Shown here: piece after piece, positions 9,433-11,133 of the stretch
Numbering within the stretch: the first letter of the stretch is position 1
How the letters are laid out: each line of letters opens with the position of its first letter
Origin: an uncultured bacterium
Lineage (GTDB): Bacteria > Armatimonadota > HRBIN16
Length of the DNA: 33,364 nucleotides
Assembly (NCBI GenBank): GCA_938027655.1
Contig: CALJAP010000061.1
Span: forward strand, 1 to 33,364
Direction: 5' to 3'
Translations under genes and position numbers: made by a program
The notes under the pieces: generated by a model
The model's input: the letters and a program-made list of their open reading frames with translations, nothing else
Told to the model about the DNA's origin: nothing
Database searches by the model: none

Positions 9433-9523
9433 AGATGCGGCGATTGACACGATAGCGAGCTTTGCCCTTCGCGCTACCAGTCCGCAGTAATACTCCACGC
9501 ATAAATGTCTACATATAGTGGGC

Positions 9524-9555
9524 TGAGAAAAATTTTTCTCAAAATATTGAGAAAA
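9524..9555 (+). promoter_or_regulatory. Triple half-site palindrome upstream of the dcw promoter
   Basis: TGAGAAAAATTTTTCTCA (9524-9541) is a perfect 18-base palindrome. Its right arm is shared by a second inverted repeat: TTTTCTCAA (9534-9542), spacer AATA, TTGAGAAAA (9547-9555). Together they give three TGAGAAAA half-sites in forward, reverse, forward order, ending 14 bases before the -35. The position suits a regulator binding site. The A/T tracts could also serve as an UP element for RNA polymerase. No T-run terminator geometry is needed to explain it. Confidence 0.55.
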
Positions 9556-9569
9556 TACCCCAAAAACCG

Positions 9570-9599
9570 TTGACAAGCCCGCCCCGTATTTTTTACAAT
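9570..9599 (+). promoter_or_regulatory. Main promoter of the dcw operon
   Basis: TTGACA (9570-9575) is perfect and TACAAT (9594-9599) has one mismatch, with an 18-base spacer. Transcription should start near 9606. All genes from mraZ to ftsZ follow on the same strand without a gap above about 45 bases, so this could drive the whole 18-kb operon. The ATG at 9600 overlaps the promoter and is unlikely to be a start codon. Confidence 0.8.
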
Positions 9600-9611
9600 A
9601 TGAGCAACCGA

Positions 9612-9655
9612 GTGGATGTTCGGTGGATGCCAGGTGGTGAAAGGGTGGAGGAACA
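9612..9655 (+). promoter_or_regulatory. Putative MraZ operator: four GTGG boxes, 11-bp period
   Basis: GTGG occurs at 9612, 9623, 9634 and 9645, exactly 11 bases apart, starting just after the predicted transcription start. The units read GTGGATGTTCG, GTGGATGCCAG, GTGGTGAAAGG and GTGGAGGAACA. MraZ proteins of E. coli and mycoplasmas repress the dcw operon by binding several short G-rich direct repeats (TGGG or GTGG type) about one helical turn apart at this position. The match in layout is good. That MraZ binds here is inferred. Confidence 0.65.
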
Positions 9656-9695
9656 GGCTCCAAACAAGCAGTTTGAGGAGCAGCTGGTGGAGGCA

Positions 9696-10187
9696 ATGAG
9701 GGGTGAGCTCGAAGCCTCCCCGCTGGCTCTGCTGCAAGGCTACTCGGAGCACTCGGTAGATGATAAGGGGCGCATCATCATGCCGCAACGCTTCCGGGAC
9801 CTGTTCGGTCGCTCCTGCGTGATTACGCAAGGCTGGGATCGAAGCCTGTTCGTTTTTCATCCCGACACCTGGCAACAAGTACGAGCACATCTGGCGCGCT
9901 ATCCGTTTATGAATCAGGACGCGGTACGCCTGCAACGTTTCTTTATCGCTCCAGCAGATTATGTAGACATCGATTCGCAGGGGCGTTTAGCGATTCCTGC
10001 GCATTTGCGCGAGTTTGCTAGGATCAGCTTGCCTACTGCCGAATCGCCCAGCACGGTAGTTATCGTGGGGGCACCCTACCGGTTGGAAATCTGGAGCAAG
10101 CAAAGGTGGAAAGAGGTCAACGCGCAGATCGAGGATGCTACCGTCTTCCAGGCAGCAGCCACTCTGGGCGTGAAACTGGAGCTGTGA
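9696..10187 (+). CDS. mraZ: Transcriptional regulator MraZ
   Basis: MraZ is a DNA-binding ring-forming protein with two AbrB-like halves. The first half shows GYSEHSVDDKGRIIMPQRFR and the second ADYVDIDSQGRLAIPAHLR; the paired D-x-x-G-R motifs identify the family. The frame is open from far upstream. I chose ATG 9696, which gives 163 residues (family about 140-150), places the GTGG boxes in the leader, and has GGTGG 5 bases upstream. ATG 9627 is possible but would put the boxes inside the gene. ATG 9600 lies on the promoter. It is first in the dcw operon, one base before rsmH, and probably represses its own operon through those boxes. Confidence 0.9.
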   Translation: MRGELEASPLALLQGYSEHSVDDKGRIIMPQRFRDLFGRSCVITQGWDRSLFVFHPDTWQQVRAHLARYPFMNQDAVRLQRFFIAPADYVDIDSQGRLAIPAHLREFARISLPTAESPSTVVIVGAPYRLEIWSKQRWKEVNAQIEDATVFQAAATLGVKLEL

Positions 10188-10188
10188 C

Positions 10189-11133
10189 ATGATGACGATG
10201 AACAGCCATGCACCGGTAATGGTGCGCGAAGTGTTGCATCTGTTGCGCCCGCAGCCGGGAGAGGTCTTTGTGGACGCTACGGTGGGGTTGGGTGGGCATT
10301 CGGTGGAGATTGCCCCTCGCCTGATACCCGGCGGCTGGCTCATCGGCATTGACCGCGACCAGCACGCGCTGGAGATTGCTGGGCGGAGGCTGGAGCAGTT
10401 CAGCGGGGCGATACGTGTCACGCTGGTGCATGCGGACTTTCGTGAGTTGCCGCAGGTGTTGAGCGCGCGTGGACTGGAAGGCGTGGACGGTATTCTGTAC
10501 GACCTTGGCGTGAGCTCGATGCAGCTGGACAGTGCGGAGCGTGGGTTCAGCTTTCGGTTCGATGCGCCGCTGGACATGCGTATGGACCCGTCCCGGGAAA
10601 GTATCACGGCGGCGGACATCGTCAACCGATGGAGCGAGGTGGACCTGCGTCGGTTGATCCAGGAGTACGGGGAGGAGCCTGCCGCCACGCGCATTGCTCG
10701 CGCGATCGTGCAGAACCGTCCGATACTCAGCACCCAACAGCTTGCTGCACTGGTCGCTAAAGCCGTAGGGCGCCGGGGCGGGCACATTCACCCGGCAACG
10801 CGCACTTTCCAGGCGTTACGCATCGCGGTCAACCGTGAGCTGGATGGCTTGCAGGAGGCGATAGAGCAGGCGATGCGTTGTTTGCTTCCGGGTGGACGCA
10901 TTGTTGTGCTGAGCTATCACTCACTGGAGGCACGCGCGGTGAAGCGGGCTTTCCAGCGGTTGAGCGGGAAGTGTGTCTGCCCGCCTGATGTGCCTGAGTG
11001 CCGGTGCGGTGCAGAGCGGTTGGTACATCTTCTTACTCCTCACGCGCTCAAGCCGGATGCGGAGGAGATTGCACACAATCCGCGCTCTCGCAGTGCTCAA
11101 TGTCGTGCTGCGGAGAGACTGGCGGCGTCGTGA
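10189..11133 (+). CDS. rsmH: 16S rRNA m4C1402 methyltransferase RsmH (MraW)
   Basis: RsmH uses S-adenosylmethionine to N4-methylate C1402 of 16S rRNA in the ribosomal P site. The 314-residue protein has all family blocks: HAPVMVREVLHLLRP near the start, the SAM motif DATVGLGGHS with IGIDRDQHAL, ILYDLGVSSMQLD, ERGFSFRFDAPLDMRMDP, RTFQALRIAVNREL, and VVLSYHSLEARAVKRAF. The C-terminal NPRSRSAQCRAAER is also typical. The first ATG, one base after the mraZ stop, has GGAG upstream; two more in-frame ATGs follow within four codons. It is the usual second gene of dcw clusters. Confidence 0.96.
   Translation: MMTMNSHAPVMVREVLHLLRPQPGEVFVDATVGLGGHSVEIAPRLIPGGWLIGIDRDQHALEIAGRRLEQFSGAIRVTLVHADFRELPQVLSARGLEGVDGILYDLGVSSMQLDSAERGFSFRFDAPLDMRMDPSRESITAADIVNRWSEVDLRRLIQEYGEEPAATRIARAIVQNRPILSTQQLAALVAKAVGRRGGHIHPATRTFQALRIAVNRELDGLQEAIEQAMRCLLPGGRIVVLSYHSLEARAVKRAFQRLSGKCVCPPDVPECRCGAERLVHLLTPHALKPDAEEIAHNPRSRSAQCRAAERLAAS

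Follow-up and report, generated by a model that had tools for sequence, protein, structure and literature searches.

A GTGG repeat array with a uniform 11-bp step is a probable MraZ operator in an uncultured bacterial lineage

MraZ is understood to be a regulator that forms rings, and its gene comes first in the dcw (division and cell wall) operon; the Escherichia coli operator of MraZ at Pmra was reportedly described by Eraso et al. in 2014. The E. coli K-12 leader, used here as a control, carries GTGGG three times at 10-bp steps, starting about 7 bp after the -10 hexamer, with a degenerate GGGG one step beyond the third GTGGG and adjoining the Shine-Dalgarno sequence. In EMSA, MraZ of Burkholderia cenocepacia binds DNA carrying four GTG repeats, each of 7 nt and with 3-nt spacers between them (PMC7761207). 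The mollicute MraZ site has been given as (AAAGTGKN3)3, with a 10-bp step, and M. gallisepticum MraZ binds the HsdC site, (GTGTTAN5)2, whose step is 11 bp, about as strongly in vitro; MraZ overexpression in vivo had no effect on this 11-bp site (PMC5282649). Since the HsdC site is bound in vitro, an 11-bp step is readable by an MraZ ring or octamer, and the 10-bp step is a property of the characterised operators, not a proven requirement.

The window analysed here, a stretch of 33,364 nucleotides from an uncultured bacterium, carries GTGG at 9612, 9623, 9634 and 9645, in steps that direct reading confirmed to be exactly 11 bp, as the first-pass annotation had reported. The array lies between the -10 hexamer and mraZ, at the predicted transcript start, with box 1 located 12 bp after the -10, and the preceding promoter (TTGACA-18-TACAAT, 9570-9599) matches 11 of 12 hexamer positions. 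The features are as follows.

9570-9575, forward strand: -35 hexamer TTGACA, shared unchanged by the nine genus leaders
9594-9599, forward strand: -10 hexamer TACAAT, a promoter match kept in the genus leaders
9612-9615, forward strand: putative MraZ box 1, GTGG, invariant in nine leaders in its extended form GTGGATGTT
9623-9626, forward strand: putative MraZ box 2, GTGG, from the sequence and the leader alignment
9632-9640, forward strand: likely mraZ Shine-Dalgarno sequence AGGTGGTGA, from 16S pairing energy in nine leaders
9634-9637, forward strand: putative MraZ box 3, GTGG, inside the likely Shine-Dalgarno sequence
9645-9648, forward strand: putative MraZ box 4, GTGG, whose GTG is the likely mraZ start codon
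9645-10187, forward strand: mraZ from its likely GTG start, 180 aa, PF02381, start chosen by conservation
10189-11133, forward strand: rsmH (mraW), the next dcw gene, PF01795, 344 bits

The gene after the array is mraZ, matching PF02381 with two domains (101.7 bits) and encoding DDKGR, an instance of the family motif DxKGR, in the N-terminal half of the protein; sequence relatives with solved structures include 1n0e, 9qlr and others. It is the only copy in the genome, and because rsmH, an ftsI-like transpeptidase gene and two Mur ligase genes come next, it heads a dcw cluster. Elsewhere in the phylum, genomes G010, G024, G200 and others (families f2, f5, f17 and f38) appear to have between two and four mraZ-like genes each.

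With at least three repeats, a GTGG core and a single orientation throughout, the array has the general form of an MraZ operator. It shares with that of E. coli the GTGG core, direct repeats one turn apart and a position directly after the promoter -10, but has four boxes in place of three GTGGG plus GGGG, an 11-bp in place of a 10-bp step, and 12 bp in place of about 7 bp between the -10 and box 1. The B. cenocepacia region likewise has four GTG-core repeats downstream of the -10, there overlapping the transcript start, but its 7-nt repeat and 3-nt spacer make a 10-bp step (PMC7761207). Mollicute sites have the GTG core and direct repeats in common with the window array and differ in their AT-rich flanks and natural step of 10 bp. 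The 10-bp step of E. coli, Burkholderia and mollicutes was not found here: every one of the nine genus leaders has 11 bp. The first-pass annotation's contrast with E. coli holds for the step and is weaker for the number of boxes, given the additional GGGG in E. coli and the four repeats published for Burkholderia (PMC7761207). Overall, the feature appears to be a real and largely explained MraZ operator that is new in this lineage and extends the system to an uncultured bacterial group, a modest variant whose uniform 11-bp step is distinctive.

Dinucleotide-preserving shuffling of 9560-9760 gave four GTGG at a constant step within 5-20 bp once in 20,000 trials and at a step of 11 bp never, and any tetramer repeated four times at any step of 5-20 bp was seen in 2 of 3000 shuffles of the same region. 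No other perfect four-box match occurs within the window, no second four-box site exists in the whole 3.53-Mb genome with up to one mismatch allowed, and a search of plasmids for a similar leader gave no match. In ten genomes of the genus, moreover, the three-box pattern was no commoner than its reversed control. A wider MraZ regulon was rejected on these last genome-scale counts, and with no second site MraZ probably regulates just this operon. A second, looser GTGG run with steps of 12, 10 and 11 bp lies inside rsmH at 10270-10306. Similar runs occur at the same place in congeners and the codons read V-G-L-G-G-H-S-V, so this run is most simply explained as coding sequence, probably for the VGLGGHS motif.

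Conservation within the genus agrees with an operator. An mraZ match was obtained in nine of ten genomes, the window's own included, the tenth being only 77% complete; the close relatives include the genome 'bacterium HR16', unclassified in NCBI. All nine leaders keep the array at 11, 11 and 11 bp, eight of them with four perfect boxes (box 4 of L011 is GCGG), and the -35, the -10, their 18-bp spacing and a gap of 12-13 bp from the -10 to box 1 are likewise kept. The alignment proposed in the first-pass annotation showed the boxes to be conserved, with 15 of 16 box columns invariant in nine leaders as opposed to 5 of 21 spacer columns (Fisher p = 3e-5, which is only a guide because the sequences are related). 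These five spacer columns spell the ATGTT that immediately follows box 1.

Relatives and phylum searches added 81 further mraZ loci, and 70 leaders outside the genus could be anchored. In these leaders of other families, GTGG pairs were separated by 10 bp in 31 cases and by 11 bp in 41, compared with about 0.7 expected per distance and a maximum of 3-5 in 200 shuffles, 4 for the 10- and 11-bp distances, whereas pairs at 9 bp were absent and a single pair was found at 12 bp. Pairs also accumulated at longer distances, 28 at 21 bp and 11-13 at each of 31-33 bp; no such peaks were seen in coding sequence just downstream in these genes or in the reverse-complemented leaders. Among 19 leaders matching at least 15 of the 16 GTGG letters, with steps of 9 and 12 bp allowed, there were 34 steps of 11 bp and 23 of 10 bp. 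Steps of 11, 11 and 11 bp, as in the window, recur in four genomes of another family, f31, and steps of 10 and 11 bp occur together in families f13 and f22. The average step in the phylum is close to one B-DNA turn (10.5 bp), and box 1 lay mostly 7-13 bp after the -10 in the 16 leaders of other families that were examined. Together with the nine genus leaders, these paired distances strongly support the MraZ-operator reading put forward in the first-pass annotation, as judged from comparative sequence.

Runs of at least three perfect GTGG at 10- or 11-bp steps were present in 20 of the 70 leaders outside the genus; the other 50, including many of the large family f12, have weaker GTGG arrays or none, and the box has therefore been altered or lost in parts of the phylum. 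In some families (leaders L018, L025, L026 and L054), G-rich GGGG(G) boxes after the promoter seemingly replace GTGG, perhaps reflecting a changed MraZ specificity.

Alternative explanations for the GTGG run were considered. The run might simply be codons of an N-terminally longer MraZ starting at TTG 9570, ATG 9600 or ATG 9627, as no stop interrupts the frame in the window back to 9570 and the nine leaders align without indels across 9612-9759. However, the frame is disrupted in relatives, by a TGA abutting box 1 in L010 and by one extra base upstream of box 1 in L009 and L011. ATG 9627 is replaced by ATA, AGA, TTG or AGG in four relatives, and the pN/pS of 0.97 in frame over 9600-9644 gives no sign of coding constraint. 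Furthermore, the array is kept in other genera despite stops in the mraZ frame between the boxes. The first-pass annotation had named conservation of the encoded protein without conservation of the boxes as the pattern that would speak against an operator; because of the stop in L010 and the extra base in L009 and L011, the opposite was seen, with boxes kept and the protein that they would encode not. Both ATG 9600 and ATG 9627 were rejected as starts by conservation, and we consider a longer MraZ very improbable as the origin of the repeats.

Slightly less probable still is that the G-rich repeats serve as a G-quadruplex in DNA or RNA. Four GG pairs do occur in a row, and a G-quadruplex has been reported for the Staphylococcus aureus mraZ promoter, with conservation claimed in other bacteria (PMC11796246). 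However, GG doublets with 9-nt loops make a weak candidate, and a G-quadruplex needs neither the fixed 10- or 11-bp step nor the T of GTGG, both of which are kept. In addition, the predicted fold of the leader RNA is no more stable than those of shuffled sequences (z = -0.89), a result from a folding program that, as used, does not address G-quadruplexes. With this fold and no Rfam match for the leader, a structured leader RNA was rejected. That the boxes are instead the site of another regulator at the mraZ promoter, as further conserved elements upstream of the -35 (9506-9556) could suggest, is equally hard to credit, since the GTGG array accompanies mraZ in numerous families across the phylum, occurs only once in the genome and matches the known MraZ core. 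Those upstream elements do imply that more than one factor may bind the leader.

If the array is an MraZ operator, its last two boxes probably have additional roles. The first-pass annotation took ATG 9696 as the mraZ start; four of the nine leaders (L003-L006) have ATG at that position, the other five have ACA, CCA, GGA, TGG or CTG, and this start was rejected in favor of the better supported GTG 9645. This GTG, which makes up the opening three letters of box 4, is present in eight of nine leaders, and L011, which has lost it, has an ATG one codon upstream instead. Pairing energies of AGGTGGTGA with the 16S tail lie between -6.7 and -12.4 kcal/mol across the nine leaders, the background mean being -5.2; a standard 16S tail was taken in place of this organism's own. 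Another conserved codon, GTG 9687, is our second choice, with Shine-Dalgarno energies of -1.1 to -8.5 against the same background and near it in several relatives. The pN/pS of 9645-9686 is 0.73 in the mraZ frame versus 0.75 in another frame. In several other families the layout is the same, box 3 taking the form GTGGAGG before a start codon at or beside box 4 in L022, L073, L077, L057 and L062. Most likely, then, box 3 is also the Shine-Dalgarno sequence and box 4 also contains the GTG start codon, which places the start at 9645 and not 9696. We regard GTG 9645 as the probable start, which would correct the earlier assignment and give operator boxes that apparently double as ribosome-binding site and start codon. 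Between this likely start and the first MraZ domain, the sequence at 9687-9728 is very variable and free of indels in the nine leaders.

A mechanism can be proposed on this basis. Transcription is predicted to start near A9606, which is invariant in nine of nine genus leaders, and the boxes would then lie at about +7 to +43. Adjacent subunits of one MraZ ring may each contact one GTGG box, the boxes being presented one per helical turn on the same DNA face. Given their location, MraZ bound there would prevent promoter escape or early elongation and thereby repress its own operon. What the sequence shows is an array that is present once, selectively conserved and associated with mraZ promoters in many families of the phylum; from this we infer both the binding and the repression. 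Deletion of mraZ raised expression of downstream genes in Mycoplasma genitalium (PMC8475190) and lowered it in Neisseria elongata (PMC9395523), and these opposite effects make the sign of regulation uncertain. Taken as a whole, the explanation of an MraZ operator whose boxes 3 and 4 double as Shine-Dalgarno sequence and start codon, and through which MraZ would repress its own operon, is in our judgment very likely.

The most useful by-product of this analysis is the distribution of steps over the phylum, at 10 or 11 bp. As a natural series of 10-bp, 11-bp and mixed steps from which 9 and 12 bp are essentially absent, it offers material for testing how DNA is read by a ring-shaped regulator. 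A broader proposal, that the MraZ operator of the phylum is fused with the translation start and that the ring reads 10- and 11-bp steps in any mixture and not 9 or 12, seems unlikely. If true, such reading would amount to a tight geometric rule for the MraZ-DNA complex, and an operator fused with the translation start could allow MraZ to act on both the transcription and the translation of its own mRNA.

Two further elements were observed upstream of the promoter. Just before the -35, at 9533-9556, lies the inverted repeat TTTTCTCAA-AATA-TTGAGAAAA, which is kept in the nine genus leaders with slight changes in L004 and L010, has no near match elsewhere in the genome, does not occur in other families, and is probably the site of a second regulator. 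Farther upstream, ATGTCTACATATAGTGG at 9506-9522 is nearly invariant in the nine leaders and contains ATGTnnACAT; together with the CCAC at its left, it forms an imperfect CCAC...GTGG dyad.
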